From: Artemia franciscana
Lineage: Eukaryota; Arthropoda; Branchiopoda; Anostraca; Artemiidae
Assembly: GCF_032884065.1 (NCBI RefSeq)
Contig: NC_088873.1
Coordinates: 23,921,558-23,985,557, forward strand
Direction: 5' to 3'
DNA: 64,000 bases
Shown: positions 2,111 to 62,730 of the stretch, piece by piece
Layout of the letters: each line of letters starts with the position of its first letter
Position numbering within the stretch: position 1 is the first letter of the stretch
Made by a program: the position numbers and the translations under genes
The notes under the pieces: model-generated
Told to the model about the DNA's origin: nothing
Databases searched by the model: none
Seen by the model: only the letters and a program-made list of their open reading frames with translations

Positions 2111-2171
2111 AACATCGAAACTTAAAAGAAACCGAAATTATTACAAGTATGATATTATCACAAGTGAGATA

Positions 2172-4912: not shown

Positions 4913-6200
4913 TGGTTACTTCGAATCTCTGAAATGCCAACTTCGACGTAAATCAATTCTCCAACAAGGACATGCCCAGGTTTTCTGTTGGGGGGGGGGG
5001 TATAAATTGTTTTTAAAAACGCATCAGAAATTTGTTGATATAAATTTTGTTGTGTTTTTACGAGTAGGAAAAAAACATTCTGGGGGGGGGGTGAATTTCA
5101 AACCCGGTAACCAGGCCCAGGACACAGCCTTGAACACCGACTGTGAAAAACGCACTCACCACCTATGAGAGTTACGTGAATGAACCATGAACCATCACGC
5201 GTCGAAAAAAATACGAAATACTCAAATTTATGAAATAGGAGGCATGCCTCCACATATACTCCCTAAATGACCTCTGAGTGATCAAGTCAAAAATCAGAAA
5301 AATGAATAATTTCTGATACCACACTGGTTAAGAATGACAAAAATCGGACAGGAGTCTGATTGTCCTTCAATATCGGATATTTTATTGTTACCCTTTCATC
5401 ATTACATGAAAAGGGTCACTTTATTTTAGAGGTTGATTTCTTAGGTTTATTTTTATTTTTCTGCTCTGAGCACAGCTAAGACTTATAAGCAGCCAAAGGG
5501 TGGTTTAGGGCATCAGAATTATCTTTCCAGGGCCTAATTTGATCCGTAGATCCAATCTTGAACGAGTAGATCCGTAGATCCAATGAAAAATATTTTGTAC
5601 CTATATTTTATTTAAATATTTAGTTGGTATTTTGGCTAGGTTAGGTTAGAATAGGTTGGTTTATGTTACATATTTAATGTATGCTATGCTTTACCCCCAC
5701 CTCACTAACATGCAAATATATAGCTCAAATTTGTTACTGAACTATTATAATTTTATCATACTTAGATATATTTCATTATGAGTAACCTAAATTCAATGCT
5801 CGAGTGTGTTCTAGCTAACAGGGAAGTACCTAACTCCAATGAGCCCTTCCCTAGGTTTCTACGACCATCTGTTCTATATGACGAGGAAAAGATTTCCTCG
5901 TCAGAGAGAAAAGATTTCGCGATGGGGAACTTAGTTCTGAAGGGTATCCCGAGCCTAATTAGAGTATTGTCCATTTAGCCTACATAATCAACAGTTAAAT
6001 TATAGCCTTATCATGGGAACAGAGACAGGGCCGACAAGAGCCATATTAGATCGACGTCAGGCATCTACGCAGGAAATTTTTTTAGAGGGCCAATAATAAA
6101 AAAAAAATCTTTAACAATTTGAATTAGTAATTTGAACTAGTAAGGCAGGAATTTTGGGATTTCAAGGGGTTCTCCCCAACACCTCTCCCCTCACGTCAGG
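4913..6200. other. Spacer with one small unrecognised open frame
   Basis: It contains poly-G tracts near 4990 and 5085 and a block at 5640-5830 shared with 2200-2400. An ATG-initiated frame of 66 codons lies at 5778-5978 on the + strand, but the opposite strand is equally open there and the start lies inside the shared repeat block. I do not recognise the peptide and give it little weight. Confidence 0.4.
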
Positions 6201-6206
6201 GTTGCT

Positions 6207-6233
6207 AACTGGACACATTTTATGTGTCCAGTT
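6207..6233. repeat. Perfect 12-bp hairpin at an array boundary
   Basis: The arms AACTGGACACAT and ATGTGTCCAGTT are separated by TTT. It sits just before the first unit of the 300-bp array and may mark an element end or the site of insertion. Confidence 0.8.
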
Positions 6234-8030
6234 AATGGATGGTTAATTCGGAAAAATTAGAAAAAATGAGGTATTTTTAACTGACGAACGGGTGATCGGA
6301 TCTTAATAAAACTCTAAATCCCGACCGGATGCTTATTTTAATCCCGACCCGACTTCTGTTTTAAATCCCAACCGGATCCGGTGACATTGGGGGGAGTTGG
6401 AGGGGGAAACCTGAAATCTTGGAAAACACTTAGAACGGAGAGATCGGGAAAAATAAGCACAAGTCGTAGATACGTGATTGACATAATCGGAACTGACCCA
6501 CTCTTTTTGGGGGAGTTTGGGGGGGGGATTAATTCGGAAAAATTAGAAAAAATGAACTTATTTTTAGCTTACGAACGAGTGATGGAATCTTAATTAAATT
6601 TAATATCTGGAAGGATCTCGTGCCTCAGAGCTCTTATTTTAAATCCTGACCGGATCCGGTGACATTGGGGGGGGGGGGGGTGGAGGAGGAAACCGGAAAT
6701 CTTGAAAACGTTTAGAGTGGAGAGACCGTGATGATACTTGGTGGGAAGGATAAGCACAAGTCCTCGATTCGTGATTGACATATCCAGACTGTATTAGTTC
6801 TTTTTGAGGGAGTTTGGGAGGGGGGGGGGGGTAATTCGAAAATTAGAAAAAATGAGGTATTTTTAACTTACGAAAGGGTGATCAGATCTTAATGAAATTT
6901 GATATTTAGAAGGACCTCATGTCTAAGAGCTCTTATTTTAAATCCCGACCGGATTCGATGACACTGGGGGGAGAGTCGGAGGGGGAAACGGAAATCTTGG
7001 AAAACACTTAGAGCGGAGAGGTCAGGATGAAACTTGGTGGGAAGAATAAGCAAAAGTCCTAGATATATGATTGACATAACCGGACCGGATCCGCTCTCTT
7101 TGGGGGATTCGGAAGGGGGGGATTAATTTGAAAAAATTAGAAAAAATTAGGTATTTTTAACTTACGAACGGGTGACTGGATCTTAATGAAATTTCATATT
7201 TAGAAGGACCTCATGTTTCAGAGCTCTTATTTTAAATCCCGACCGGATCCAGTAACATTGGGCGTATTTGGAGGGGGGAACCGGAAATCTTGGAAAACGA
7301 TTAGAGTGGGGAGATCCAGATGAAACTTGGTGGGAAGAATAAGCAAGTCCTAGATATTTAATTGACATAACCTGACCGGATCCGCCCTCTTTGGGGAAGG
7401 TGGGGGGAGGGGTTTCAGTGCTTTAGCGAGTTCGGGGCTTCTGGACGTGCTAGGACGATGATAATTGGTAGGCGTGTCAGGGACCTTCACGAATTGATTT
7501 GATAAAAGTCATTTCCTCGATTCAACCACCTGGGGGGGGCTGGAGGGAGGGGAAACCATTCAAACGGAGGTATGTTTATCTTACGAATGGGTGATCAGAT
7601 CTTAATGAAACTTGATATATAGAAGGATATCATGACTCAGATGCTCCATTTTCAATTTGGGACATAGGGGGTGGAGGGGGAATCAGAAATCTCGGAAAAC
7701 TCTTAGAGTGGAGAGATCGGGATGAAACTTGATGGGAATCATAAACACAAGTTTTTGATATGTGATTGACATAACCGGACCGGAATTGCTCTCTTTGGGG
7801 GAGTTGAGGGGAGTTCTAATACTTTGGCGAGTTCAAGAATAAGTACAAGTTATAGATACGTGATTGACATAAGCGGACCAGTTCCTATCTTTGGGGGAAT
7901 TCGAGGGATTTCTAGTATTTCGGCGAGTTTGGTGCTTCTTGACGGGCTAGGACGATGAAATCGACAACTCTAGTACCGAGTCTAATTTTAGCAAGTGCCA
8001 TATGAGCTCTTGGCTTTTGTTTTTTTTTTT
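6224..8030 (+). repeat. Array 1 of ~300-bp G-rich units
   Basis: A unit reads GGTGATCGGATCTTAATGAA, then AGAGCTCTTATTTTAAATCC, CGACCGGATCCGGTGACATTG, a G-run, TTAGAGTGGAGAGATC, GATGAAACTTGGTGGGAA, and a second G-run after CGCTCTCTTTGGGGGAGTT. The TCTTAATGAA landmark recurs near 6300, 6570, 6880, 7175 and 7590, at spacings of about 273-416 bp. The array ends at CATATGAGCTCTTGGCT (7999-8016) plus a T-run, the same end motif as array 4. No protein is encoded. Confidence 0.85.
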
Positions 8031-8574
8031 TAGCACCCAGGTTTTGCCAGAGAGGTTTTGTTGTAAGCAACGGATTTTCTCCAAAGTAAGGGATTTACAT
8101 GTTTATACGAGTTTCGTACTCTCCCACTAAGTCAGTTTGTATGAGTGTTTTTTATGGATTTTTTCGTTTTCAGTTTATATTTGACATTAACTGGCCACTT
8201 TGAAAGAAATATTATCGAGTTTTCAGAGACTAAACAAGTATTTTCGAGTTTTTGAAATTTCAAGATGGACATATTTTAGCTAAAAATAACACTTTTTTGG
8301 ATGCTCAGCACGGACCAACAAGTTGGGAAACCGTGTCTCCCGTATGTCCCTGACCGAGTGAGTACACTCTAAAGATTTTTTCTTTGTTAAGAAGTTCATG
8401 TATTTTTCAGATATGAACTATTTTTAGATAATGTAGTGGTTTGGGTCTTAGGTATTACAGGTCAAAGCCAATGGAAAGAGAAGGGATGGAGCTTGATTCC
8501 TATTAAAACTACTTCTCAAGGTAGCAAAATGCCCACCACCCCTTTCTCGCTTTAATAGTTGCAAAGGGTTCAAA
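8031..8574. other. Spacer, nothing recognised
   Basis: AT-rich sequence with no coding, RNA or repeat signal that I can support, apart from weak similarity to the start of the family C element that follows. Confidence 0.4.
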
Positions 8575-9230
8575 AACTCGGGTAAAATTCTAGTTACTTG
8601 ACTTCTTGCTATCTCAGAAATGGTTTAGGTTAGGAAAATGAAACTTTCAGGGATGAATCTACAGACTAAAGTATGCCCCGGGAAGGTATTTTGAAGCAAC
8701 TACCTCCACTCCTTCTCCCTCTAGATGGCCCTGACCTTTTATGACCTTTAAAATATGTGTGTTATAAAAGTGAAACCTTGCAAAATGGATCTTCTGCTTG
8801 ATTGAAGCACGACAAAATTGTTTTCAGCTTTATAACTTTGCTCAATTTCATTTTATAAGGTTTTAAAGATATGCAAATACATTTTCTAAGTTTTGAAAGA
8901 AAACATTGATATGGCTCAAAATTCTACTCAAATAACAGGAATTGCATTTTCAGAACTAAAGGCAGAGAAAAAGTAACTAGTAACTGAAAATTAAGGTAAA
9001 ATGTTGTTTTGTCAAAATTCCAATAGGCATAGACCTGTCATGTAGGCAAATTTCAGGGCCCTCTAGCGGGAGAAGAAGTGGAGGTGGGTACAGTGGGTAC
9101 TTTAAAATACATTCCCGGGACATACTTTAGCCTGTAGACCCATCCCTGAAAGTTTCATTGTCCTAACCTAAACCCTTTCCGAGATAGCAAGAAGTCAAGT
9201 AACTAGAATTTTACCAGAACTCTTTTGACG
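8575..9230. repeat. Family C foldback element (~185-bp arms)
   Basis: The left arm at about 8580-8755 (CTAGTTACTTGACTTCTTGC, CCTAACC-like block, CCTCTAGATGGCCCTGA) is repeated in reverse at about 9040-9225. The middle is AT-rich. A related copy lies at 25400-25985. No coding capacity. Confidence 0.75.
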
Positions 9231-11279
9231 ATTTCTTTTTAGGGAATGATGAGTTTTTGTGGCCTCGAAAGGGCTTAGAAGTATTGAATAGCCCAGGTCT
9301 CTGACGGATTTTTGCGAACCAATCTATATGTGCTACAATAGATAATCAATGTTCTTCTTACCATAACCTCTGTCGTTCAGTCCTTAGTAAATGCTTCTTA
9401 AGATGACACAGAAGTTGAATAAAAACTGGCTGAGGACTGTCAGTAGCCTAGACTCTAAAATTAATATAGGAATGCAGACAGGAATGATGCTTCAGCTTCG
9501 GTTCGGGTAACCCTCTGTTGAGCGATGACGGTGGTTTCCGATAGCATAAATTTGCAATAATGGTAGGTGTGGCAGCATCAATAAAACTACAGCCAATCAA
9601 AACTTAAGAGCTCTTCATCCTGGAGGAATGACGAAGTAATAGATCTACCGGATGCTGGCTCTTCATTTACTTTAGGTTGGTTGATTTGAGTTAATTCAGC
9701 TTATCTGAAGGAGTAAACTGTGTATAAATTTAGATAGTAGGCCTACAATCATTACCTATCTCAACCATTAGACAAAGCCGAAAGGAGATGCAAGTGCTCC
9801 GGAGAACAATTAAACAAGTAGAAAAATAAGCGATATTATATTTTTTCACGGGTCGACAAGTCACATTTTTCTTGAACTCCAAGCTTGGCTTCTCTTTTGT
9901 AACACTAACTTTTAAAGAATCTAATTTTAAATTAATTTATTCCAGTATAAATTTAAAAATTGGTAATTAGTAATGTGATGTTATTATTAGATGTTTTTAG
10001 AAATACAAGTGGGTTTCAAAATCTTGAGTTGATTTCAAAGGCATTTTCAGAAAGATTATGCTAAAATACGTGTTCCAGGGCAATATGCACTGGACCGCTG
10101 ATGACAGATTAAATGGGAAGAGCTGTTTGGACGCGCCGATTATGTAGTAGCCAAAGATTACTGAGTTTGATCATACTATATAAATTTATATACAGTTGAA
10201 GGAATCACCGTAAAGAAGATAATCCTACTTTTAACTCGTGCCTTGAACTGGCCGCAGAGCAGAACATAAAAGGGACGAAGGGGGGAAGCACCCCGGGGCT
10301 GCGGCGAAACAAACCAAAGAATAAAATCATAAAAAAATCCCAAAAAATAGAATTAATCCAACGTTTAAATCGTTTAAATTGTGATACCCGAATACTTTGT
10401 CAAGCATAATAATACGTAGCCTCTGCCCTTTCCTTCTTGTTTTACTTTAAGGGTTTATTTGTGCAATGGGATGACAGAGCAATATAATGGGCATGGGTGA
10501 GGCTCCAACGGCTGTTGCTGCTTAGCTAGGTAGATAGCCTATATAGGCTCTCCTGTTTATTATTAAGAGTTTTCCGGGGGTACCAGTCCACAAAAACATA
10601 GGGGCGGTTTTTTTTCTGAATGAAAAATACAAAAAAAGTATTTTTCATAATCTACCCCCACCCCGATTGGTACCCTAGCGAATTTCCTCATTTTCCTCTA
10701 AATTTGTCTGGCTTAGGGGTTTTGACAAACCCTCCCTCTAAGATGTAGAATCAAGCATAGGCGCCTAATGACAAAATGGCACTTTTATTTCGTTTAACGT
10801 TTGATTAGTTGCAATAAAGTTCATACTTACGTCATTACTCCATGATGAAACACTGTTGCACTTACATTGTGTTTAGTTTACATTTAAAGTTTATAAGAGT
10901 TTTCTAACAGCAAAATTTTTGTCTTAATTGGTCTAGTCGGCAGCCGCTTGTCTTAATTGGTGGATAACGGTAAAAAGGATCCTTCATTTTTGGGCATTAC
11001 AATACTAAAGTAGAATTCCGTTCTATTGTTCTTATTCATTTTAGATTTAAAGCAAATTACGTTTACAAACATGATCTTCTCTAACTGTCTTGTAAGGAAA
11101 GGACAGAAAACAAGGAAAAACAAAAAATAAGAATAAGGAAAAGCGATGCAATAAGGACGCTAGAAAGAGGCATGGACTCTTCTTATCTAATCATCATATG
11201 CATGAATTAATATATAAAAAAAGTTTTCCCATAAAATAAGTTTATCAAAGAAAGGAAATGTAACCAAATGAGCAGAACC
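9231..11279. other. Spacer with a small perfect hairpin
   Basis: No gene or known transposon was recognised. A perfect hairpin lies at 10620-10648 (ATGAAAAATAC and GTATTTTTCAT, 7-nt loop) and is framed by GGTACC-containing sequence on both sides (about 10574-10680), consistent with a small foldback element. Confidence 0.45.
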
Positions 11280-11700
11280 AAATGAAACCAAAATGAACAG
11301 AAAAAAAGTCAAATAATCTTCCAAGCGTAAAACTACCACAAATCATCATCAATAAATAAATCGAACCCACGACTAGCTGAAATTACAATAAATAAGCGAG
11401 TCAAACTAAAAATGAGGAAAAATTAAAATGACTAGGTTGACAACCTCCGTGCCGTCTCAAGACTAGAACATACTTTGCACTTTATTGAAAAAAAAAATAC
11501 ATAAAAAGTAGCTTTATTTTTTTGAGTTTGATAAATACAAATTGTTAAGACTTTCAGGAATAAACATAAGTATGTGTATATTAAACTGACAATCCACGAT
11601 AATTTTTTTTCAGTAAAGTGCACAGTTACAATGATATTGCAGGCTATTATAAAGCGGCGATACCTACGATATTGCTTATATGCCCTTTGGAATACCTGCA
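11280..11700 (+). repeat. Dispersed repeat family H, copy 1
   Basis: Shares CAAATAATCTTC, ACAATAAATAAGC-like, CTCAAGACTAGAACATA and ATTAAACTGACAATCCACG blocks with 47440-47830 in the same orientation. Neither copy encodes a recognisable protein; an 89-codon minus-strand frame here is a repeat by-product. Confidence 0.65.
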
Positions 11701-13420
11701 TATATATAGTTTTTTTTTAATTGAAGCTCCCCCTAAACGTTCCCTAAAAGTTTCACCTTAATACCCTCAGCGTTATTAGTTACAGCAACTGTAGCCTACT
11801 GGTAGCGTCAATAGCATACACATAGTGCCTTCTGGCTAGTTCAAAATTCGCAACAACTTATCCTTAAGGGTCTAACTTACTACTGTGAGCTGTTCTTGAG
11901 ATATTGCTTTGTCAGCTTTGTCATCTTTTTGAAAATCTGCATGCTCATAGTTCGTTCTGATTTAGTTAAACATCTACCCAAACATTTCTTTAAAGCTTCA
12001 CCTTAATACCCTTAGCTTCCGCAGTAGCAATAGGTGTAGTAGCATTAGCAGCAGTATACGCATAGTACCTTTGGTTTCTTCAACATCCTCTTCAACGCAC
12101 GCTGAAAGTTTCGGCTTAATATCATCAACCGTTTCTGAAGCATTTCTGATGTGACTGCTTGACAACCTGTGTGGGTACAGTGTATTTCCGAATTAGTTTC
12201 CTTAGCTTACAGAGTAGCAACAGTAGGATTAGTAGCAGTATGTGCATAGCACCTTTTGTTTCTTTGACATTCTCTTCAATGCACGCTGAAAGTTTCAATT
12301 TAAATCCATCAGCTGTTTCTGAAGCATTGCTGATATGTGGTAGTTTTAGCAGTAGTAGGATGCAAATATTATCTTTTTGGTCAATTGGTCATATCCGTTA
12401 TCATTTCCTGGAAGTTCCAAAATAATATACTCAGTCATTCCTGAGGCAAGCCCTTTTGACAACCTGTATACACATAACATGTTTTGACTTTGTTCAACAC
12501 TCCCTTCAACATTCTCTGAAAGGCTCACCCGAATACCCTTTGTATTTTTAAAAAGTAGTAATAATCTTTATGGGAAATCAATAGCATACGCTGTATGTAA
12601 ACAATGAAGGAATTACCTAACTTACAGCCCTTGCCCTGGGGGATGTGTGGAGGGGGGAGCCGACATCCCGAGAGGCATAATTAGTGGACCTTTCAATAAT
12701 GCTGAAGGAAAATTTCACATGATGTTTTTTGGAAATGATTGGTGCGGGGGGACGGGGCCTTGTTGCCCTCAAATCACTTTTGATTCTTAAAAAGGGTACT
12801 ATAACATCCATTTTCAAAACAAATGCCCCATCCGAAGTATATATGACCACCCATTTCGTAGAACGTTTATGCCTAAATGCCCCAGAACATAACTTAAAAC
12901 CTTTGCCCGAAGGGTCTGGTGGGTCGTGTTAATTGTGGGGGCATTGTTGTATGTCCTTTGCTTTATTTCGAACAAGATGGCTATCTCACAATTTCAATTA
13001 GAAGTGTTTGGGGAAAAGAAGGTGTTTGGGAGGGGGGTCGCCCTCCATCCCTTTTGGCTCTTAAAAGGGAACTAGGACTTCCAATTTCCAATGAAAAGAG
13101 CCTCCTTCAAAGTTTATACAACCACCCGCACATATAAACCTTATATACTCCTGCGGCATAACTTACAACTCTTGCCCAGAGGGTTGTGGGGAAGTTGTCA
13201 GCCTCAAAACATAATTACTGGTTTTTTCAACCATGCCAAGTAAAATGGCTAAATCAAAATTTTGATTGTATGTGTTTTTAAGAAATGATGAGCATGAGGG
13301 AGGCCTGTTTGTCCTCCAATCGCATTTAACTATTAAAAAAGGCGCTAGAACTTTCGATTCCCTACCGAAATTGCCCCCTTCAAAATTTTGCAACAAACAC
13401 TTCTGTACGAAGTACCCTTT
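11701..13420 (+). repeat. Dispersed repeat family F, copy 1
   Basis: The first half contains repeated AAAGTTTCACCTTAATACCC and TAGCAGCAGTA-type motifs with trinucleotide drift. The second half has repeated blocks with GCCCTTGCCC, ACTATAACATCC and AAAAAGGGCACTA-like motifs. The same blocks occur reversed at about 44080-46960. The spacing suggests internal tandem duplication followed by decay. Confidence 0.6.
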
Positions 13421-13539
13421 TCAAAAAAAAAGAAAATTTGCCCATATCGCTCTTTGCTTAGACAGCGCTATTGCGTTGCCTATGATTAGACAAGGCAAGA
13501 TATGTTCTCCGTGATTTGTGTTCAAACCACTTAAGATAT

Positions 13540-15236
13540 TAAATTAAAAAACAAGTTTTTTTTTTTAACTGCAAGTAAGGAGCGACATTAAAACTTAAAA
13601 CGAACAGAAATTATTCCGCATATGAGAGGGGCTGTCCCCTCCTCAACGCCTCACTCTTTACGCTAATTTTTTTTATTGTTTTAAATGTAGAACTGTGACA
13701 AATAGTCAAACTTTAGAGTAAAGAGCGAGGTGCTGAGGCCTTTCATATACGGTATAATTTCTGTTCGTTTTAAGTTTTAATATCACTCCTTACTTGCAGT
13801 TAAAAAAACTTGTTTTTTATTTAATTTCTGAACGTTTTTGAATTAATGCATATTTAGATTTTGGCTCACCGCACATGAATAATTAAAATCAAATTTGCAT
13901 ATTTTTTTTTTTTTTTGGCTAAACGGCTTTCTCATAGTTTTGATCGGACGATTTTGATAAAAAAGATGTGGTGGAGGAGACCTAGTTGCCCTCCCGTTTT
14001 TGGTTACTTAAAAATGCAACTAGAACTTTTTATTTTTTTAAAATGTTTTTATTACTAATAAATATACGTAACTTACGAATTAACTTACGTAACGAACTTC
14101 TATATTTGTATATTTTTATTACGTATATGAGGGGGTTCGCCCCCTCGTCAACACCTCTTTCTTTACACTAAAGCTTGAATTTCGTCCCAGTTCTTTAAGA
14201 ATAACCCCTGAATCACAAAGGTCGTAGAATAAATAGTTGAAATTACTAAAAATACTTTAGCGTAAAGAGCAAGGTATTGTGGAGGAGACAAACCCCCTAA
14301 CATACGTAATGTTTTCTGTTTGTTTTAGGTTTTAATGCTGCTCTTTACTTCCAGTTAAAAAAAAAACTTTTTTTATTTATTTTCTCATTAGTTTGTTATT
14401 TTAATAATGCTAGAAAATCTTGCGCCCCCTTCATGGAAATTCTCATCTCTTATGATAAATTCCTTCATTGAAAGATAATACCACGGAACCCCCTCGACCC
14501 AACCCCACCCCAACGTGAAAAAATCCTCCAAAAATGCATGTACACTTCCCAATAACCATTGCTATATGTAAACAATAGTCAAAGATTGTATCTTGCAGAT
14601 CCTCCCGCGGGGACTGCAGGGGATTAAGTCGTCCCCAAAGACATAGTTATTAGGTTTTCCGACTATGCTGAACAAATAGCTATTTCAAAATTTTAATCCG
14701 GTGACTTTTGGAAAAAATGAGCGTTGGAGGGGGCTAGGTGCTCTCCAATTTTTTGGTCACTTATAAAGGGCACTAGAACTTTTAATTCCCTTTAAAATGA
14801 GCCCTCTTAAAACATTCTAGGACCAACGGGTTGGTACGATCACCCCTGGGAAAAAAATAAAAAATAAAAAAAATAAAAAAACACGCTTCCGTGATCTGTC
14901 TTCCGGCAAAAAATACAAAATTCCGCATTTTTGCGGATAGGAGCTTGAAACTTCTACAGAAGGGTTGTTTGATACGCTGAATCTGATGGGGTGATTTTCA
15001 TTAATATTCTATGATTTTTAGGGGGTGTTTCCCCCCCATTTTCTAAAATAGGGCAAATTTTCTCAGGCTTGTAACTTTTGATTGGTAAGGCTAAACTTGA
15101 TGAAACTTATATATTTAAAATCAGCATTAAAATTCAATTCTTTTGATGTAACTATTGTTATCAAACTTTTGCTTTAGAGTTTCGGTTTATTATTGAGCCG
15201 GGTCGCTCCTTACTACAGTTCGTTACCACGAACTGT
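13540..15236 (-). repeat. Near full-length 1.7 kb composite repeat (A + A + B), copy 2
   Basis: Same block order as 3160-4912: foldback A (13550-13840), GAACGTTTTTGAATTAATGCA spacer, second A (14100-14390), inverted B (14400-15236). It ends in a perfect family hairpin at 15215-15236 (ACAGTTCGT, TACC, ACGAACTGT). The preserved hairpin and complete order make this the best reference copy in the window. Confidence 0.8.
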
Positions 15237-16009
15237 TTGATACCTTATGATTCATGTTGCACCATTTATGGTGAGGCTCAGCCTGACTCTTAAATTTGTG
15301 CACTGAAATTAAAGTAAAAATTAAGGCAAATTGGTCAGTTGGTAAAATGGGAACATAAACTACAACGCTTTAGAAATATGAGCCTGCTACCGTTATGATA
15401 ACCACCAGGGTTTATGCGCATACTTTTTTTTCCTCGCACTTAGGTGATAAAAAAGAAGAAGAAAAAAGCCATTACTGAATGTAAAGCAAGAAAAGTGGTG
15501 CTGTAAAGCCAAAAAAAAGGCAGTGTTTCAAGTAGAATCTTTATATCCTATTCTTTCCTGAAAGGAGCATTGAATTAGAAAATAAGAAAAAAAAATGTAT
15601 TTCTAATTTTTATATTTCTGTTCATATTGTAAGTACATTGTTGTGTGTTATATTGTAATAGTACTATGAAAATATACACTTCTTAAATATTATGCTTCAC
15701 ATTCTATTAACCTAACCGACTACCATTTAGCAAGGCTTAGGCCTCAGGTAATATTTGAGAGGGTCAACTTATTTTTAAATAAATAATTTAATGCATCTTT
15801 CAAAAGTAGTGGAAATAAATTGTAAATTAATAAAACCTGCACCTTTAATAAATATTACATATAATCAATACCATTATTTATCCTTTCACTATAAGCGAAA
15901 ATTTCATTACTAAAGTATTGACGGAGACATGGGTGACAAAATGACTCCTCCTGGAAAATCCGGCACTGACTCGCTGAAAATAGACTTTGTCTCAGAAGGG
16001 TAGAAGTCA
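15237..16009. other. AT-rich spacer, no gene seen
   Basis: Contains scattered AATAAA-like and ATTAATAAA motifs but no supported gene, tRNA or transposon structure. Confidence 0.4.
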
Positions 16010-16500
16010 AATATCAAAGAGTTCGTGGTAATGAACTGTAAGTAAAGAGTGACTCAACTCAATACTAACCAAAACTTTAAAAAAAAGAAGTTTGATGACA
16101 ATAGACATGTCAAAACAATTGAAATATTATGCTGATTCTAAACATATAAAGTTCATTAATTTTAATGTTACGCATAAAAAGCTACAAGCCAGAGAAAAAT
16201 TAGCCTAATTTTTAAAGTTGGAGGAAACATCCCAAGAAGTCAAGCGATCGTAGTAATAAATTCACACTATTAGATTCAGTATATCCAAAAATTGTACTGT
16301 AGAGCTTTTAAGTTCCTATATACAAAAATGTCGAATTTCCTATTTTTTGCTGGAAGAAAGATCACAGATGTGTGTTTATTTGTTTGTTTTTCCACAGGGA
16401 AAATTGTATCGAGCCAGTGATCCTAGAAGACTGGTATCGAACCTCATTTGATTGAAAATAAAAAGTTCTAGGGCTCTTTTTGTGACCAAAACGTTTGTAT
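16010..16500 (+). repeat. Family B, 5' part of a diverged copy
   Basis: Starts with a decayed family hairpin (AGTTCGTGGTAATGAACTGT) followed by GTAAAGAGTGACTCAACTCAA, and continues through the GAAGAAAGATCACAGATGTG block before losing similarity. Confidence 0.65.
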
Positions 16501-29100: not shown

Positions 29101-32100
29101 CCATGGACTGAAGAGTAAATCATGCACTAAGGCTAGGAAATGCTGCTGTTTTGCTCAGGTCCTCCTTTTCAATGTAAAGAGCAGAAAACCCTGGCCTATT
29201 CTTGCTTCAAATAATGTGCATATGCTTGATACTGCGCCATTTATTTCATTAATTTTGATGCTTGTCTCTACTGTCAAAGTCAATTGGCACGGCGCCACGC
29301 CCAATTCCATGTGAAAACTTAACATCTTTACCCGAAATGTTATTTAATTTTTGTTTTGGGGAGCAATCAAGATTTGAAATTTGGTTTAAGGGGTGGGGGT
29401 GTAAGAAAAAAAAAATGATGTTTTGACTGACAAATGGACTAGAAGCCACTTACTTTAGACACTTTTTCAGATGTGTACTGTTTATCTAATGTTTCTGGAT
29501 AAAAAACAAGTTTTGGTAAATTTTTTGTTGTTCATGTATTATTGACTGTGTTTTCGATAAAATATCAAAAATATGAAAGCCAAAGGAAGAAGGTGTAGAA
29601 TGTTTATGTTAGGTTATGCTATTTTAAGCCTTTTTTATACCCAAAAACTAGAAATATTTTGGTCATATACATGAGCTCAAAAAGGGCTTAAAGTTGATCT
29701 TAAGGAATGTTGAACAATTAAAGTGAAATTGAAGAAACTCTCAAATACAAAAGCACAACAGCTTGCCCATGAATAAAACGAAAAACAAACCAATGTTCAA
29801 ACTTTGAACTTGTCACTTAGAAACATTCTTTTTTTGAGTGTTCCAATCAGTTGTTTTTGCACATTGGATTGCTTGCACTATCCATGTCAAAATATGAATT
29901 TCTTTGGTTTTTGAGGTGGGGACTGTATACCTTTGGCCATGAGTTTTTGACCATGGTGATTTCAATGGTTACTTTTTATTTTGATCCAGTGCTATTTTCA
30001 AGAGGTTTTGGGCTTTTTTATGCAACAAATTCTCAATATATTTTTAATCAAAAATACCCTGTACACCCATTTCCAAAATTCAACTTGGCAGATGGATAGA
30101 GCTGAAGCTGAATCTCAGGTATGGAAAGATAAGAAAAATTTGTCCTTCATATATTGAAACCATAGGAGAGCAGAAATAAAATATACCAAAACTTTCAATG
30201 GAACATAAACATTAAATCTACTCATCAAGAGGTTTTCAAGGATACTTCACACTTCTGTTTCCATACAAAAAACATTTAAATGAGAGCAAGAGGGAGGGTT
30301 AAACGATCCCTTGACCTCTCATGCCAAAAAATGTTGGAACATATTTTTATTGTTTTGTTTTATTCTCTTGGCACTGTCTTTGGAGTTTGAGCATCAGAAT
30401 GGACTCTACTTTAAGGGGGCTCTTCTTTGCTGTAACCCACATAATGGGTGGTCTCTGAAAATCACTATTCACTTTGCCAGGGCTTTCTTAACCAGGCCAG
30501 GATTTACCAATAGGCTCACTAGGCCTGGACCTAGGAGTGCAAAATGTCAGGGGGTGCAATAAATTATCACTGAGTGATTTTTTCTTAATAAATACTGGAC
30601 TGCTGTGATTTATTGTCAAAGTGCTTGATGCACTCTGCTGCCGCGCTGCCTATTCACAGAAGAATGATTTTAAAACAACACAGGAATCCCATGGCCACTT
30701 ATAAATTGTCAGATGTCTCCCAAGAATGGCAGCTGAGAGTTTGGTATCATCCCTCTCTTTCATTACTTTCTGCTTATCAGTTGTGTTCTGTACAATGTTT
30801 CCACTATCCCTGAAAATATCACAAAAACGGAGTGGCAAAAAAGTTTGGTCGTAGAAGCATTAAAGCTATAAAGCCAGCCTTGTTCATAACAAGGCTCAAA
30901 ATAATACTGTAAAAATTGTAAATAAATCTAGGAGAAAAAATACCCTGGACATTTAGAGGTTCCAGCCATATTTTTTCCAGTCTAGGATAGTACAGTAGAA
31001 AAAAATTTGAACCCAAAAACAAATATTTCCATTAATCAATTATGTCCTGTGGTGGCGCAGTGGATTTGACCTTAGCTTGGTAATACAGGATTGAGAGATC
31101 GAATCACGCTACAGGAATGCACTGCAGGGCCGACGCAAGGACCTTAGTAGTCAAGAAGCGTCGTTAATTCTTAAATTAATCAATTATTTTGTATATTACA
31201 TAAAACTAGAACTTTTTCAGGAAAAATTACATTTATGGACACGCCTAATCTGTTTTAGCCTTCTGGAATTTTCAAAGCAAAAATGTCTGTGTACCATCCA
31301 AAACGGGCTTCCAGATGGCTGACTATGTAAAATATCTTCATTTGCAATTTAGAAGTTAATTTGGAAATAAGCAAGACACACATTATTTTTTGAAGACATA
31401 CAACTTTAGTATTTGTCTTGAGGATGCAAAAGTCAACATTTTCAGTTTTAATGGCTGAAAAACCAAAACCTTGAAAGATTGACAAGATAAAATATGCTTA
31501 GCCAACCATATCCATGAAATGAACAAATCTACCAAGGTTCATCAAAATCTGCAACCACAAGTTCTAAACTAACTTTTTTTTTGTTGAGCTTATATGGAAT
31601 GGCTCTGTGTATAAATGATAAAGCTGTACTTCTCCTAATCTCCTACAACATTCCATAAGACGAGAGTGAAATCATTTGCTTACTAAATAATCTAATATTC
31701 CATAATGATAGGACTCTTAGAGTGGATTTGCTTAAATAAATTGACAAAAACGATTAGATTTTTATGATAGTGACTTGCTATTGACTGACCAATATTTCAA
31801 ACTGTAAAATGTACAAAAAGTATGGTTCAATCCCACTTTCTAGGGATTCAGTTATCACTGATTTGTGTTTTTTTTACAACATATTCAAAATCAAACTACA
31901 CTCGTAAATATAAATCGAACTATAAACATTAACTCTTGTTGTACATATTGACGAAAACCAGGACAAAAGAATTACCATATTGGTTTGTTCTTGCTTTAAC
32001 AGGAACTAACTTATCTTGCTTTCTTGTTCTTGATGGTAGTGGTTGATGAGGTAGAATGTCACAGTGCTGAGATTTAGAAAGCAAGAACTTTTCAAAACTC

Positions 32101-35100
32101 ATTATCAGAGTTTTGTATCGGTTTTGGAGTGACGGCAGTCCTAGCACTTCCAGAACCTTTTCACAGGGGATGTCATGGTGGCCCAAGATGATTGATACCA
32201 CTTGTGTCTGAACCAATTCAAGCTCCTGACAAAGATACACTGTTCTAAGTGCTGAGTCCCTAAACAGGTCACGCATATTCCAGAATGGGGCGGACGTACG
32301 TTAGGTGTGCATACTTAATACTCTCTCTGTTCACACTGAACCTATGCATACCGTTTAAAGTCTGTAGACTAGCGTTTGCACTTTTAATCACGTTTTCAAT
32401 ATATGCAGCTAAACTGAAGTCATTGAAAAAAGTAAATCCAAGGATCTTGATACTGTTTGTTAGAGGAAATGGGACATTTGGCTCCATATCATGGCTTTTA
32501 AGTGGGTTAGAGCATACTATCTTTGACTTGTTCTGATTAATCTCAAGATTTAATTCCGTGCACTTTTTTGTGAAAACACTGAAAAATTCAACTGAATTGT
32601 GGCATCACAACTCTGTTTTGTACTAAATATTTCAGTATAACTGACAGGTCGTCCATGATCTTGATGCAGTCATCATAGTCAGGCTAGGGTATGTTCTGCA
32701 GCAAAAGGATGACAGATTGCCAAAGACTGTCCTTTTTGGCGAACCATCAAGGGCTAAACGGAAAGCCAATTGTCCTTGGTTTGGATGGGAGGATGTCGTA
32801 AGGAAAGATTTAAGGGAAATGTGAACTTCCTATGAGGGTTTAAAGAGGGAGGCTTTCAGTAGATTGGGATGGAGGAGAAGCATGTGTAGGTCTGTTGGCC
32901 TCAGGTGGCTTGGTGTTGTGGTGAGCTGTTAGTAGTAATTAGTAATAATAGAATTGACAAATGGTATAGGAAGTTAAACTCAACTACTTCATTGGCAGAG
33001 ACCAAGGTTTTACTGTCAAGTCATGTTTGCAGTAGCTTTACAAGATAATTGATTAATTCTACCTGCATTCGCTTTTCCCACATCATAACTTAATTTGTTT
33101 TTCTTTTTTTTTTAATTGAAGTGTGTTTAAGTTTGATTCTTTTTTCTCCATTACTCCATGGGTGTCATAACGTTTTTATGATGTTGGTTAATAAATTATC
33201 ATGATTAGTATCATTAACTATATTTGTTTTATTATCCTGCATAGGACTTTTTTTATAATTTATTCTTACAGGATTTACTAAAAAGGGTGATTATGGGTCG
33301 TCCACTACCTGAAAATGTTAATAATTTTTTGATCATCGTATTTGATGTTGCTTGTGCTATTTACTTCCTCTACATTTTGAAACAAAATCCCTCCCCATAA
33401 TTGTTTACAACGATTTTCCCCACAATTCAAAGAAAGTGTTTTTCCCCTATGCAAATCATCTAGTCTTTTCACCAAATAACATGAACAATCACTATCATAG
33501 TTTTCAAGTCCAGGATAATTACTAAACTACCTTCTTTTTTCGCATCAATGACATTAAACAACGTTAAAATTTCAAATGCAAATAAAATAAAACAAAATAC
33601 TATTACTTAACAAACTTTTTAAAACTAAGGGGTTCAATGTGTATCCTTAGAAATTTATCCTTTAAATTGATTTATTCTTAGACTAACTAGTCAAAATTGC
33701 ATCAATGGCCGTAAAGCCAGAACTAAAAAATATGTAAAAATGTTCTGTTTCTTATTTCCATTAAAGGAATAAACCTACCAGATCTTATAAAAATCTAGAA
33801 TCCTGAGCGCAATGGCCTGGTTGATTTAATATGGAATGATCTGCCTGCTATTTTCTGTTGCTTGTATAATTTGCTAAAATATTTTACTCTTAACATGATT
33901 TCACTTCTTTTTTTTATGAAAATTTTTAGGGTCAAACTTACCTTTCCTTTTGTCTTCTGAATTGTTTCTTTTAGTTTCTGGTGAACTGTGTCGTCGAAAA
34001 CAAAAATTCCTTGGACTAAAGACATATGAAACGTACTCATGCCCTCGTGATTTTGATGATGAGAAGAAAATTTATTGTTGTGGTGATGATGACGACCCTC
34101 CAAGGTGCTGTTCTACACCATATGGTGATGTCGATCCTGAGCTTGTAGAGATTGTAGGAAAGAAGTAAGTATTCTTATTGTGCTATGAGTTTATAATCAA
34201 GCTTTTTCCGGGCTTTCAAACAGTTAAAAAGCCTTAGTTGCGAAGGCCTGTAGCTTCATGTAGGTCCAATGCTGTCAGAGGCCTGGAAGATTGACCATAT
34301 TCAGTTAAGTGCTGTCATGGAAATTAACACCAACTAGTCCCCATTTTGCAGATAAACTTATTGTAGGGTACATACAGTGTACAAAAATGGAATATAGTGT
34401 ACACAGAGAGAGGTTATTTCTGATAATTCCATTCAAGCTTGACTCCTGTCCTCCAAAGGAAAATTTGAAAAGAACACGTTAACATAAACAAACAAACTGA
34501 TATCTAGGCTTGAAAAAAACATTGTTGGAGAAACAGGATCTCAAGGACCTCTAATATATAAGATTTTCTGCACAATTTCAGAAATTTGGCCAAGCAAGAA
34601 TTTAAGGAAAATAAGGTTTTCTTTTTTTAGGCAATCACACTACTTCAAATAGACGAACCAAATAGTTTTTGTTTTGTCAATAAAGGTATAATCTTTTTTT
34701 CTTTCTCTCTGTAAGAGAGAAAATGTATTTAGGATTAAATATACTTAACATTAGCCTGATTGTGAGAAACATAAAACCATTCAAAACCCCCAAAAGTTGC
34801 TTTGATTTACAAATAGCTGCTACAAATATTTGATAGTATCAGTGCAAGCTACAAAATATCGTAAGGCTAAAAAAAAAAGAAGAGAAGCGACATAACTAGG
34901 GCTTAATGCATAAATAGAATAAAAGGGAGGGATAAGAAAAAGTAAAAGTAAAGCTGCAAAAGACTTCTTCTAACCCTTAAAACAACGGTAGAAAACCAAA
35001 CTATAAGACAAAAATAAATTCCTGTGTGGATATGATGGATGGTTATGATATACACTAAGTGGTTCAAAAATTTAATATGGGTGGTTAATTATCAAAAGCA

Positions 35101-38504: not shown

Positions 38505-38561
<57 letters not shown>

Positions 38562-41500
38562 ACAGTTTTTTCTGGCAATGAATTTCAAAATATATAAATA
38601 CAATGATATGAAAAATCCTAATGAGCCCTACCAGTTCTTGTATAAATGGTAATAGTGGAGCAAAAATACTGTTTGACCTCAGGGAAATAGCAACAGATTT
38701 TTTTTTCTACACCAAAATGTTCAGAAAATTAGCTGAATTACATAAAAAAATCCACCAAAATCCCTCTTGCACAGGGGTCCCAAATTTGCCCTTGAAGGGG
38801 GAAATGAGGGGGAATCGATTTTTGTGTTTATAAATGTTTTGGAGCTTAAATAGTCGTTTCCTATCAAATCAAGCATAGCAAATCCGAATACGACATCAAA
38901 AATCCTGTTTTCTCTATCAGGATATTAATTTTTACCTTCATAGAATGGGGTGGAGGGTGAGTAAAGTACAGAGATCATTATTTGACGGATTCCTGCGACT
39001 AAAGGATCCTTTTATATCAAATAAATTAGTTTATTGCCAAATACGAGGCCAAAAAGCGTTTTTTTACTATTTACGTGATTTCCACCTTTGAGGGCCCTGT
39101 AATATGAGGCGTTGATTAGTATAACTTCTTAAATACCAACTTTTTAATCGGGGTCAAAACTTCAGATCAATCAGTTATAAAAAGGAACGTTTAGAACTCA
39201 GGTAAATCAATCACAAAAGAATTTTGATTTTAAAGCGCAATCTAAAGTAAGTTCTTATTCCTACTCGTCTTTATTATCGTCTTCATCATGTCTTGCTGCA
39301 GCGTTAGATCATAACGCCCCTTTAAACTCCCCACTGGCATAGCTGCAGGGTAAACCGTTCCAATGGCAGATGCATCTGAGAGATTCGTACACGCTGGTGC
39401 ACCGCACCATCTTAAGCATATTTTCTGGTGCTGGTGAAGCATCTGTCATAATGTGAAGATGCATATTCCGCGACAAAGAGAGGCGCCAAAACCACTCTTC
39501 GTGCTTTAGCAAATTGGACATGTCTTACCACTTCATTATTTGCAAATAGCACCTGTAAAAGTGGTACTTTGCGGCATCCAAATTGGCAGAAACTGCTCTG
39601 CCTGAACGAAAGCATTTGAACTTGCAACCCGCATAGTAAATAACCGCATCTGGACATCCTTCAGGGTCTTCTCATTACTTTTCTCTTTGTATATGTAGAG
39701 CAACGCTTTTTGATCTCCTAGTGGTTTGATCCTGGTTTTTATGAAGATCTTGCAAGCATTCTTACAAATACCATCTTTAAGTGACACGGAAACCAACGCC
39801 GTAAAGTCTAGATGTTGTATCACAGCCAGACATTGCGTGGCAATCAATTAGATTTTCTGCTGCTTCGGCTCCTAGTTTGTTCTTGATCATTTTTATGTCA
39901 TACACTCGTCGGTTATTTTCATGTGTGTCTGTCTGCATTAAAATATCCCATGCATCAAGCTTGGCAGAGTACAGCAGAAGGACTAATAGGTCGGTATCAT
40001 TTCTAATCAAAGTAGTCGACAAAGTTTCGGCGTAACTGACTGCAGTTTGTACAACTAAGACGTCGGCATCATCCTGAGTATGTAGAACTTGACATCCTGA
40101 GTTCACCAGCCTCTCAGTTAGTAGGTTGATCAAGCATTCTTTATTTTTGGACTTCTCAAAAATTCCTCCTTACTTTTGATAATCTTCATGTTAGCAGAGA
40201 ATTCAGTCGTTGGATACGACAAACCTTAGACTCTCTTCAGTCGTATGAAATTTTTCGTCGTTGGCGTTTCAGTGTAAGAGTAAAAAACTACCACTGCATG
40301 GCCGAAATGTCTTTTGACATAATCTACGTAAGATTCTGCCACCTTAGAGTATATGGACCCGGCAGTTCACGGTATTTTGTGGATTAGCCAGTCACCGTCC
40401 AAAACTCTCTGGGAGGTTGGCAATGTCACTGGACCCTCTATCCACTCAATTTTCATCAGTGCATCTGTAGATGCTTTGTCGGCTGTCCTCATCACCTCGA
40501 ACGAACTAAAAAACAATGGTGCAAAAGTGCAGAGGTCGAACGGCAGAACCAGGTTCTTGTCAGAACCACTGGTACTAGCCACTGCGGCTAGACGTCGGAA
40601 GATTAGAGTTGGTTCGACAATTTACTTCTCGCTACCTATCACCACAGATGAATTCTCAGCCATAGTTACAGCTTTCTCCTTTCTCCTGAAGGCATATTTG
40701 TCAGTTTCTTTCGCTTTCATGTCCTTCAGAATCTTTTCTCTCACAGATTTGACATCGTCTATGCTTACAGATGATGAAGTGCGAACACCAGTAACCAAGT
40801 TCAACAGCTGTGAATCCTGCCTGAAGGGTTCTAGGGACTCAATGTATCGAACTATTTTTTCTTTGTCCACCAGATCTCTAGCTTTCCTCGAAGATATCCC
40901 TTCTGTTTGATTTTCAGCACTCAACTCTGCAAGTTCAAGCAAGTTCTGCATGGGTTTGTTAACGAGAACCAAAGTAGATATAGCAGATGTTCAAATTGTC
41001 TCCTGCAATTTAGTCGTGCCTCTACATCTTATCAGACCACCACTCATTTTATACTTCTCATTAACGTTTGTTTGATCACCAAATCAGGAGGAAGTGCCGC
41101 CTAGTAGTTGTCAGTTCACCGGATGAACAGGTAATCTTTTAACATTCTGTACTGCTCTGGGTTGTCTTTCCTCAACTAAAAAATCGACTGCACGAACATC
41201 CAATTGGACTTCGTGTAAAGATTGTGACTGGAAGCAGCAAAGTAAGGAAGTATTACTAAAAAAGACTACAGATAAAGCTCAAAATTGCCACTTAGTTCAG
41301 CTCTCAGGCTCCTCAAAATTCCAAGCAGGTCCAGATACTGAAACCAAAAACGGGCAGTTCTGGACTCGGATAATCGTTCTTTTAAACTATGAAATATTCC
41401 ATAGATAAGCTCTGCTACTTCCGACACCTGCGTTTCGTCAATGTTATATCCCTCAAGGAGTGACTCGTAAGTCTGTTTTGCCTTTTCAAGGGGTTCTGGT

Positions 41501-44500
41501 AGCATGCCATTGCCATCAAAAACTCTGCTGTTCAGTTTTGATAAAACTGATTGTTGTAAAATCCACCTAGGATAACTATAGCATTTCTTCAGCACGTGTG
41601 GCTGGCTCTGCATCGACGATACACTTTGCTTTCCAGTAAAGCCGTTGGTCCAAGGTAATGACTATAGTTTTTCCAGCTCGACTAGCGTGCTCATTAACAT
41701 GCATAAGTGTAGAATAAACACAGGAAATCAGAAATGATTATCCGCTCTTTCCAAAATCAGAAGCATAATCCTAAACAATATCACACGAAATATTTCTACT
41801 CAATGCTCGCAGATCCCAGTTTATTCTTTTGTCTTTTTTTTTTAAAAGTAAATAAAATGACACAAGCCTTTTATATAGCCTTGAACCCAGTCATGAAGCA
41901 AGTACTATTGTAGATGGCTCTAGTGATTAGATCAGCAAAAGAATATCATTAAAGAATGGAAAACCGTAAATTGAAGGGGAGAGGGGACTAGTTCATATAG
42001 ATCAATTTTCACAACTGTTTTAGGTAAGATGAGGTAGTTGACTGCGTAAAATCAAGGTTTTAACTTTATTTTCGAATTGGCTACCATTCATTTCATGAGA
42101 AACGATCAAAAAATACGACAACCTCTTAATTTCGAGTTATAACCCTCCACCCTCTTGGGGTGGAAATGGGCATAAGGGTACGGAAAAATGGAAACCTGAA
42201 TTCAGATTTAGAGTCATTTTGCTTGATTTGATAGGAAACAACTATTAACTCACAAATATTTTTAAACACAAAAATGGGTTTCCCCCCTCATTTCTCCTTT
42301 CAAGGGCAAATCTGGGACACTTGTACAAGGGAGATTTTGGTGGATTTTTGTGTAATTCAGCTGATTTTTCTAAGCATTTTGGGGTAAAAAAAATTCTGTT
42401 GCAGTTTCCCCGAGGTTTGACCAGTTTTTCTCGTATCTTTCCTCCACTATAAGTGCTTTTGATAAATTGCACTTGACTGGTCAACAAGCTTGTTTATCTT
42501 TCAGTGTTGACAAAATACTTGGTATAATAGCCGGCATTGTGGTGTTTGTTCTTGTCGGGTGTGTCCTCTGCTGTTGTTTATGTCCTTGCTGCATACTTTA
42601 TAGGAGAAGACAAAGGGGAACTACTCATTCAAGTAAGTTTAATCTTTCTTAAGTATGTCTTTAGAGCTGTGATCCCCGACGTAGGGCATAGGCTCCACCA
42701 GTGGGGCATACAATTTATCGGTGGGTCATGTGCAGGATGTGTGCCCTTCATCTGACACTGCTCAAGAGCCTTAGCTTTGGAAAAATTTTTTCATGAGAAT
42801 GACATGACATTCATACGCATTTAATTTGCAAAAAAGATGCACGATAGTATTGCAATGACGTCATGCATTGTATAAAAGGTGCTGCTGTATACAGGCATAA
42901 ATTTGGTCTAATTAGTTTATTTTGCTAATACTATAAAAAAAAAAATAGTATAAAATAAGCCTTGAGGAAGACTCGAAAAAAGTTACCAAGTTAATGGCGA
43001 TTTTAATTCTCATTCAGGTAAATACGCGTAAAATTTTGAGTAACAAAATTTAAATAACATGAAGGGATATCAGTATTTTACGATGTATAGGTGGGGTATG
43101 GCCCAAAATCGGTTGGGAATCACTGTTTTATAGTTAAGTGACTTTAAGGAACATATATATTTCTTGGGTTGATTTTTTACTTTGTTTTGTTCAAACGATT
43201 TTTCTTGTTAAGATGACTATTACGATGCAATGAGTTGCATTGCTGTAACTGCTGTACAAAGGGCAAAAGACAATTTTACGGGAATAGAATTTTGGGCAGT
43301 TCGCGTTTTCATGGTGTCTTCTACTGTACTGACTTGAAAAAGGGGAATACATTTTTGAGAGATGAACAATGACGAATAAAGTCAATTGAATCCGCCATAG
43401 TAGTTGGTTATGTCTGCTTGCACTGAATATGATTGAAATGTCCTTTTATACCGTAGCAGGTGGAACTTAGCAGGGTCTTGTCCATGTTGCTTGTAGTAGG
43501 ATGAGTAGAAATTTAAGTTTGGGCAAAAAGCCTACAAAATGAATATTCCTTTTGATATCTGGCTTTGAATATCTACTACTACTACTACTACTACTGACAA
43601 CTCACCGCAGCACCAAACCGCCTGAGGCCAACACAGCCACTCACGATCCTCCTCCATCCTATTCTATTTAAAGCCTCCCTCTTTACACCCACTGTCATCA
43701 CTGTAGCCTCCAATATTCCAATGTTCGTTCGCAGACTTATCTTACTGTTCTTCCAAACTTTTTTCATCTGTAAAAAACACCTTGGGTGGCTATTCTACTT
43801 TTAACATCTTCATTGCACCCACCGTCTTTACTAATAATGCTACCAAGGTAAGTGAGGCTATCTACTTGATCGATCTTTACCCAATTTCAGGTACAATCAT
43901 TTATCATAGGCAGTGCTGTACTTTTTTTTTGGTTTGCTTCTTGTAGAATAGGGTACTTCGTATCGAAGGAGTTGTCGTAGAAACTTTGAAAAGGGCTCAT
44001 TTGATTTGAAATTGAAAGGGCTGCCTTTTTAATATCGAAAGTTATTAAGTCGAAACTTCGAAAAGGGCTTCTCCGATTGGAAATTGAAAGAGCTAATTCA
44101 CTATTTAATAGTCAAAAGTAATAATAGTGTAACAAGCCCCCCCCCCCTCCCCATATTCCCAAGACACATCTAATCAAAATAATGAAATAGCCATTTTGTT
44201 AAGTGTAGTTGAAAGATCTGGATATTATGTCTTTGAGGATAACAACCTATCCGCAGCCCCTAGTGCAAGGGCTGTAAGTTATGTCCAAAGGGCATATAAG
44301 GTCTTTATGGAAATGGTGGTCGTATAAACTTCGGAGTGGGCTCATTAGATTGGAGATCAATTGTTTTAGTGCCCTTTTTAAGAGTCAAAGTGACTGGGGG
44401 CATCCACCCCCCACGTCATATTTTCCTCAAATGCATCTGATAGAAATTTTGGGATAGCCATTTGTTCAAAAATAATCCAAAGACCATATAACAAGGCCGT

Positions 44501-57370: not shown

Positions 57371-57640
57371 AACTCAAAGCTGCTTTTCCCTACGTGGAGA
57401 ATTAGCGACAATTGTATTTATTATTATTGGTGGTGGTTTTTATGTGTTTTTAGATTAGTTTTCTTTTAATTTTTTATCTTGTGCTGAGGACGCCTTCTTT
57501 GGATACAGGCGAAATATCCGCGTTGTTTTAGTCTTTCCTCTCTACTGGCCGTCGTCTTGTTTGAAGTTTTCTTTTTGTAAAGTTTTATCTCTCTTTGTTG
57601 TTTAACGACTCCTGAAACAAGAAGGCCGTTTAATTAGAAT
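57371..57640 (+). mobile_element. Possible Penelope-like 3' terminal sequence
   Basis: Contains GTGCTGAGGACGCC, a short loop, then GGCGAAATATCC (57481-57519). Such CTGANGA-stem-GAAA patterns occur in the terminal regions of Penelope-like elements. No coding part is attached, so the call is weak. Confidence 0.3.
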
Positions 57641-57649
57641 AATAAACTT

Positions 57650-58680
57650 TTTATGGCACTTGGTATTAACCAAGTGACATATAGCGATCGCAAATTCTGT
57701 CGGTCGGTCTGTCTATGTGTTCTGGTTTTGCTAGTTTAGGCACTTCGAAATAAGCTAGGTCGATTAAATTTGGCAGGCGTATCAGGAATCAGACCAGATT
57801 AAACTAGAAATAGCCGTTTCCCCGATTTGACCATCTAAGGGGGGGGGGGACGGGGGGACGGTTAATTTGGAAACATTTGAAAAAATGAAGTATTTCTAAC
57901 TTACAAAAGGGTGATCGGATCTTAATGAAATTTGATATTTAGAAGGATATCGTGTCTCAGAGCTCTTGTTTTAAATCCCGACCTGATCCGGTGACATAGG
58001 GGGGGGGGGACCTAAAATCTTGGAAAACGCCTAGAGTGGAGGGATCGGGATGAAAATTGGTGGGAAAAATAAGCACAAGTCTTAGATACGTGATTGACAT
58101 AACCGGAACGGATACGCTCTCTTTGGGTGAGTTGGAGGGGGAGGGTTAATTCTGAAAATTAGATATTTTAACTTACGAAGGAGTGATCGGATCTTAATGA
58201 AATTTCCTATTTATAATGAACTTGTAACTCAGATCTCTTATTTTAAATCCCGACCGGATCCAGTGTCATTGGGGGAGTTGGGTGGGGGGGGGGTTTACCG
58301 GAAATCTTGGAAATGGCTTAGAGTGGAGGGATCGGGATGAAACTTGGTGGAAAAACTAAGCACAAGTCCTAGATACGTGATTGACGTAATCGGAACAGAT
58401 CCGCTCTCTTTGGGGGAGTTGGGGAGAGGGTTAGTTCTGAAAAATTAGAAAAAATGAGGTATTTTTAACTTACGAAGTATTGATAGGATCTTAATGAAAT
58501 TTCATATTTGGAAGGATCTCGTAACTCAGATCTCTTATTTTAAGTCCCGACCGGATCCATTGTCATTGGGGGGAGTTGGGGGGACCGGAAATCTCGGAAA
58601 TGGCTTAGAGTGGAGGGATCGGGATGAAACTTGATAGGAAAAATAAACACAAATCCTAAGTACGTGATTGAAATAACTTC
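57650..58680 (+). repeat. Array 3 of ~300-bp units with complete lead block
   Basis: It begins TTATGGCACTTGG with an 8-bp hairpin (57657-57676; CACTTGGT, ATTA, ACCAAGTG), then the CTGTCGGTCGGTCTGTC block, GGCAGGCGTATCAGG, and three G-rich units with TCTTAATGAA at spacings close to 290-295 bp (about 57912, 58195, 58490). It breaks off after the third unit. Confidence 0.85.
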
Positions 58681-61604: not shown

Positions 61605-62730
61605 TACCGGATCCGCTCTCTTTGATGGAGTTGGGGGGGGGAGTAATTCGAAAAAATAGAAAAAATTGAGGTGTTTGTAACTTACGAACGGGTGATTAGA
61701 TCTTAATGAAATTTGATCTTAGTCGTAGATCTTAATGAGATTTGATTTGAATTTGATCTTGTGCTTTAGAGCTCTTATTTTAAATTCCGACCAGATCCGG
61801 TAACATTGGGGGGAGTTGCAGGGGGAAACCGAAATTCTTGGAAAAGGTGAAAATTGAGGTATCTTTATCTTACGAATGGGTGATTGGATCTTAATGAAAC
61901 TTGATATATAGAAGGATCTTATGTCTCAGATGCTCCATTTTCAATTCGAATTGGATCTGGGGACATGGGGGGTTGGAGGGGGAAACGGAAATCTCGGTAA
62001 ACGCTTTGAGTGGAGAGATTGGGATGAAACTTGATGGGAAGAATAAGGACAAGTTATTGATTCGTGGTATAGTTGGAATGGATATGTTCTCTTTGGAGGA
62101 GCTAGGGGGTGTTGATTTGGAAAAATCAGAAAAATTAAGGTATTTTTCACTTAAGAACGGGTGATCGGATCTTAATGAAATTTGATATTTAGAAGGAGCT
62201 CATGTCTCAGAGCTCTTATTTTAAATCCCGACCAGATCTGGTGACATTTGGGGGAGTTGGAGGGGGAAACCGGAAATCTTGAAAAACGCAAAAATTGGGA
62301 TGAACCTTAGTGGGTAGAATAAGCAAATGTCATAGATAAATGATTGACGTAACCGTACTGGATCCGCGCTCTTTGGGGGGAGTTAGGGGGTGGGTTTCAG
62401 TGCTTTGGCGAGTTTGGTGCTTCTGGACGTGCTAGGACGATGAAAATTGGTAGGCGTGTCAGGGAGCTGTACAAATTGATTTGATAAAGTCGTTTTCCCC
62501 GATTAAACCATCTGGGGGGCTGAAGGGAGAGGTAAAGTTAGAAAAAATGAGGTATTTATAACTTACGAGTGGGTGATCGGATCTTTAGCAATTTTGATAT
62601 TTAGAAGGACCTCGTGACTCAGAGATCTTATTTTAAATCCTGACCGGCATTAAGCCTCTGATTTTCCGTTTAAATCATTCTAATGATGCTTAGAATTTTG
62701 CTGGAGCTCATACCATATGAGCTCTTGGCT
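61605..62730 (+). repeat. Array 4 of ~300-bp units with 3' end
   Basis: Units with TCTTAATGAA near 61695, 61890 and 62170, then the distal block (GTGCTTCTGGACGTGCTAGG, GGTAGGCGTGTCAGGGA) also seen at the end of array 1. It ends at a 9-bp hairpin (GAGCTCATA, CCA, TATGAGCTC; 62704-62724) followed by TTGGCT. Confidence 0.85.

Follow-up and report, generated by a model that had tools for sequence, protein, structure and literature searches.

In a 64,000-nt stretch of the Artemia franciscana genome (NC_088873.1; hereafter the window), a decayed gene lies between two long inverted repeats, which raises the question of whether gene and repeats together are a mobile element and, if so, of which kind. 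The initial annotation describes the encoded protein as multicopy among cnidarians and arthropods and as having no known role. It took the locus for an undescribed DNA transposon family with a nuclease as its mobilising enzyme. We found that positions 38653-42449 are a well-delimited, real copy of a DNA transposon. The copy is old and has suffered an internal deletion; its kind is probably Academ-like (AcademX-type), a name assigned from the description of that group.

Termini, target-site duplications and recurrence in the genome

The inverted repeats pair 38676-38875 with 42416-42220 at 83.7% identity over 203 columns (blastn). In a looser alignment they extend outward to TAGTGGAG at both ends and inward to about 38905 and 42199, so that ~250 bp are traceable. 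The left repeat (38653-38905, plus strand) begins with TAGTGGAG and stands at the 3' end of the gene; the right repeat (42199-42449, minus strand) stands at its 5' end and finishes with CTCCACTA. The unit is bracketed by a target-site duplication, TAA, identical at 38650-38652 and 42450-42452. Of the limits annotated initially, 38653 was exact and 42453 lay 4 bases too far out.

The same genome (1.27 Gb) was searched with both termini and with a nuclease piece and an N-terminal piece of the gene. Scored candidates numbered 40 of 371 (left terminus), 40 of 340 (right terminus), 150 of 954 (nuclease piece) and 150 of 392 (N-terminal piece), and the counts are lower bounds since only these were scored. 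Each terminus had 40 scored matches, and 151 matches were reported for each gene piece, distant families included. A gene piece lay inward of the right terminus in 30 of the 40 scored matches, every time in the orientation seen in the window. In 27 matches the N-terminal piece started 1057-2764 bp from the right terminus (median 2221 bp), and no N-terminal piece was found up to 5 kb outward of the 40 matches, the outward check covering N-terminal matches only. For the left terminus, a gene piece lay within 7 kb in 15 of 40 matches (chance ~0.002 each). Both pairing counts take in the window's own copy and all 40 matches of the respective terminus, set against 93 N-terminal matches and, for the left terminus, 106 nuclease matches (17 only for the right); they are confined to the window's own family and exclude fragments adjoining listed ones.

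Among 20 fetched stretches of ~10 kb, several copies comprised the gene with both termini, and others were fragments with a single terminus (L011, L013, L018, L028). One copy picked by its gene alone (L050) had the left terminus, but the 6 kb retrieved did not yield the right one. The single-terminus fragments would suit a reading in which the termini are independent insertions of short miniature inverted-repeat transposable elements (MITEs) flanking a host gene. This is refuted by the inward position of the gene, in one orientation, in 30 of 40 right-terminus matches, and the narrow distances to the N-terminal piece and the matching outer TAA around the whole unit argue against it as well; we consider it exceedingly improbable. 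L011, L018 and L028 were also rejected as MITE-like elements, each showing a single terminus only. The recurrent pairing and the short duplications bear out the initial view of gene and termini as one mobile element, which also withstood the refuting conditions set at the outset.

Distant matches of the N-terminal piece (30-36% identity to P0001) included long open frames, from which two further families were delimited. Family C (L029) is ~5.4 kb long, ends in TAGTAGG, has TAC on both sides and holds a 1463-aa open frame between its inverted repeats; no other frame exceeds 161 aa. Family B (L030-L033) consists of copies ~97-99.7% alike in their aligned pieces. Its copy on C18 (~6.5 kb) ends in TAGTCCAGG and has GTA on both sides; across 528 columns its two inverted repeats match at 95.5%. 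None of the four family B copies showed a complete open frame, the longest being 1212 aa. Within the family B inverted repeats (L030 654-995, C18 copy) there are direct repeats offset by ~150 bp and ~74-78% alike, so these inverted repeats may have grown by tandem duplication.

The rule common to families A (that of the window), B and C is TAGT...ACTA ends with 3-bp target duplications; the terminal inverted repeats across these elements measure 140-530 bp. Duplications were counted in 11 two-ended copies, namely the window, eight of 13 candidate copies, one family B and one family C copy. L011, L012, L018, L024 and L028 were excluded because one end was unrecognisable. An exact 3-bp duplication was present in seven of the 11 (TAA, AAC, AAT, ATA, TTA, GTA, TAC; chance 4e-10). 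The four others count against the rule: L010 and L014 have one mismatch, and in L017 and L027 the duplication is absent. L016 and L021 were retained despite terminal mismatches, and five of nine are exact if both are left out. With lengths of 2-8 bp tried, none of the 11 copies had 4-8 matching flanking bases. If the terminus is shifted two bases inward, a 2-bp TA match appears in nine of 11 copies, because TA is its own complement.

The fetched copies had a mean identity of 80.4% to the window element (80 aligned pieces totalling 42,471 bases, left-right terminus matches included), so the family is old. On C13, three same-family copies with identical scores lie 9.58 kb apart (nuclease-piece matches at 3765124, 3774709 and 3784292, N-terminal-piece matches at 3767204, 3776789 and 3786372); their even spacing and identical scores indicate that the transposon gene is here part of a tandem array. 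A possible second array on C7 has three copies in one orientation ~8.9 kb apart (gene matches at 48828266, 48837124 and 48845998), each with a right terminus (48830744, 48839615 and 48848503). No relative outside this genome was confirmed in viral_contigs and genome_contigs, both poor sources of animal DNA.

The decayed gene and its missing N-terminal segment

Between the inverted repeats, the gene runs on the minus strand at 39315-41725 and carries many stops and frameshifts. It corresponds to approximately residues 587-1447 of an intact 1463-aa relative (tblastn with P0002 and P0003): the intact relative aligns from 41382 to 39315 (residues 747-1447), and a second relative adds 41725-41603, a stretch around TLDQRLYWKA (approximately residues 587-627). 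The motifs reported initially (DADV, DTDLL, GCDTTS and a Cys-rich tail) are all there, the tail in eroded form. A predicted FEN/PIN-like nuclease core, left as an open piece of 118 aa with DDADV, NDTDLL and GCDTTS, lies at 39777-40133 (minus strand). The eroded C-terminal tail follows at 39315-39524 (minus strand), where the alignment gives CSC...CDSEKCTCKKNGLEC...C..CKGSSCN for the intact relative. No Pfam family reached the cut-off in pieces of the window gene, and none was found in its read-through.

At a junction at 41725-41728, the window copy has lost approximately 1.9 kb that would form the gene's N-terminal part. At the matching point, L017, L023 and L027 have an extra 1.70-1.88 kb; these three segments, 91.8-93.2% alike, code for the N-terminal portion of this protein. 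The segment is likewise lacking in L012, L014, L015 and L016. L025 also has ~1.9 kb at this point, which was ruled out as the N-terminal segment since it is a different repeat, unlike those of L017, L023 and L027. Because the window copy lacks this part of the coding sequence, it is a non-autonomous deletion derivative that later decayed. Its enzyme was therefore incomplete before, or apart from, the later decay, and the copy is doubtful as a model element.

The protein and its possible role in transposition

In the 1463-aa protein of family C, an N-terminus with Cys and His residues is followed by a central region, a FEN/XPG-like nuclease domain and finally a tail rich in Cys. A model of the nuclease region of this intact relative (predicted local distance difference test score, pLDDT, of 74) matched FEN/XPG structures in Foldseek, and the best 50 of 1000 chains were all FEN1, EXO1, GEN1, XPG/Rad2, XRN or plastid exonuclease. 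By this modelling, the C-terminal domain is a predicted FEN/XPG-type nuclease fold, in agreement with the PIN/XPG-like nuclease foreseen in the initial annotation.

Several results weigh against this assignment. The template modelling scores (TM-scores) of the seven best Foldseek matches were 0.25-0.49, and two of five models were poor (pLDDT 51 and 55). No Pfam family, XPG_I included, was found in the 1463-aa P0002, and a sequence search of the PDB gave no relevant match. With 16 candidates scored, the XPG_I profile gave four matches genome-wide, none of them at the listed transposon copies. In hhalign, the 5' nuclease of E. coli PolA and Xni were not significant against the nuclease region, ranking 8 and 26 among 37 targets, and 6 and 19 when the whole C-terminal part was used. 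A FEN profile combining two sequences did align in register (p 0.011, without decoy control). Compared with the FEN/XPG (Rad2) superfamily (FEN1, EXO1, GEN1, XPG), the predicted fold is the same; here, in contrast, it lies below sequence detection, within a 1463-residue protein of several regions that is borne by a transposon.

The proteins of families B and C share 41% identity overall (41-46% in sub-regions), and acidic D/E residues of the central region are identical between them. That the nuclease is the mobilising enzyme, as initially suggested, is doubtful, since the domain makes up no more than the C-terminal portion of a ~1460-residue protein whose middle keeps conserved acidic residues.

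The fuller elements, which measure ~5.4 kb in family C and ~6.5 kb in family B, have long inverted repeats starting with TAGT and encode one large protein. We hypothesize a cut-and-paste mechanism in which this protein would bind the repeats. The central region, putatively an RNase-H-like DDE domain, would cut at TAGT and insert the element into a target opened with a 3-bp stagger, which would produce the 3-bp duplications. The FEN-like domain might cut or trim a flap or junction strand arising in excision or integration. The window copy, after losing its N-terminal coding part, could have moved only if another copy supplied the enzyme; it then decayed.

The nuclease protein might instead be a passenger or accessory cargo of an element moved in trans by a transposase encoded elsewhere. 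Accessory nucleases do accompany a DDE transposase in KolobokP, KolobokE and KolobokD, as the available text of PMC9587614 describes. We regard this as very unlikely, since the nuclease gene is kept within such termini in all of families A, B and C, and the 5.4-kb element of L029 showed no second long frame.

Affiliation of the element and its surroundings

The AcademX nuclease is XPG-like. In the accessible part of PMC10045372, AcademX elements have 3- or 4-bp and AcademH elements 9- or 10-bp duplications, a difference tied to the encoded nuclease or helicase. Academ is cited as a superfamily named in 2010 (PMC4455052, in part), and Academ and AcademX are attributed to Kapitonov and Jurka 2010 and Kojima 2020, as cited in the available portions of PMC4455052 and PMC10045372. 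The elements described here have in common with AcademX an encoded nuclease (here predicted) and 3-bp duplications (exact in seven of 11 copies, none of 4 bp), a comparison by description only. The length of family C (~5.4 kb) is close to the 5.6-kb mean of Academ elements in bivalves (5565 bp; PMC10294476, in part). With a nuclease-bearing AcademX lineage with short duplications already in print (PMC10045372, as excerpted), the initial term 'undescribed' is probably wrong. The available parts of PMC10799480 and PMC9004415 contain nothing on a nuclease, and no fuller account of AcademX was identified in the part of the literature covered. Two points count against the affiliation: it is made from described features, and the DDE domain is putative.

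Other superfamilies fitted less well. AcademH was rejected because the duplications are 3 bp rather than 9-10 bp (lengths of 2-8 tried) and no helicase family was found in P0002. Harbinger duplications are 3-bp TWA, which only two of the seven exact duplications match, and hAT duplications are 8 bp long, whereas an exact 4-8-bp repeat was present in none of the 11 copies; both were rejected. Kolobok, which duplicates TTAA, was rejected since the exact duplications here are variable 3-bp sequences and never TTAA. KolobokP, KolobokE and KolobokD are Kolobok lineages that resemble the present elements as DNA transposons carrying a nuclease beside a transposase domain, but differ in having a His-Me, lambda-exonuclease-like or DnaQ nuclease and a recognised DDE transposase (PMC9587614, in part).

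A superfamily distinct from Academ, in which the FEN/XPG-nuclease protein is the sole enzyme and mobilises the element without a DDE domain or with another catalytic domain, seems unlikely to us. It would accord with the lack of any Pfam family across the 1463 residues and with the content of L029, whose repeats enclose no large gene besides this one. DUF6589, which we take to be Academ-related, had no match in the genome, and its control likewise matched nowhere. However, the central D/E residues, identical in two proteins of 41% identity, are a possible DDE set, and a nuclease with short duplications is AcademX as published (PMC10045372, as far as available). We give similarly little credence to a superfamily of its own whose giant protein would combine a zinc-binding N-terminus, a catalytic middle of unassigned type and a FEN/XPG-like flap nuclease making one transposition strand cut.

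Directly to the right of the element, 42506-42633 appears exon-like by eye, with a hydrophobic Cys-rich reading (VDKILGIIAGIVVFVLVGCVLCCC...), so the element may be intronic in a host gene for a membrane protein. Some 100 bp beyond the left terminus, more than 45 A follow one another (38508-38559); they could represent a microsatellite or a retroposed element's tail. The window is repeat-rich, since several repeats of 0.3-1.4 kb occur at least twice each, direct and inverted (178-16400, 6240-7760, 57640-58680, 61840-62620). An open frame of 115 aa at 31929-32276 (minus strand) presumably resembles the end of the reverse-transcriptase protein of a long interspersed nuclear element (LINE).

The window element most likely belongs to an already-named animal transposon group, that of the Academ-like elements. 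Its TAGT termini and 3-bp duplications show that a protein without a Pfam family is a transposon gene, and genes of this kind could be removed from annotated host gene sets. What a predicted flap-type nuclease is doing in a transposon becomes a testable question.
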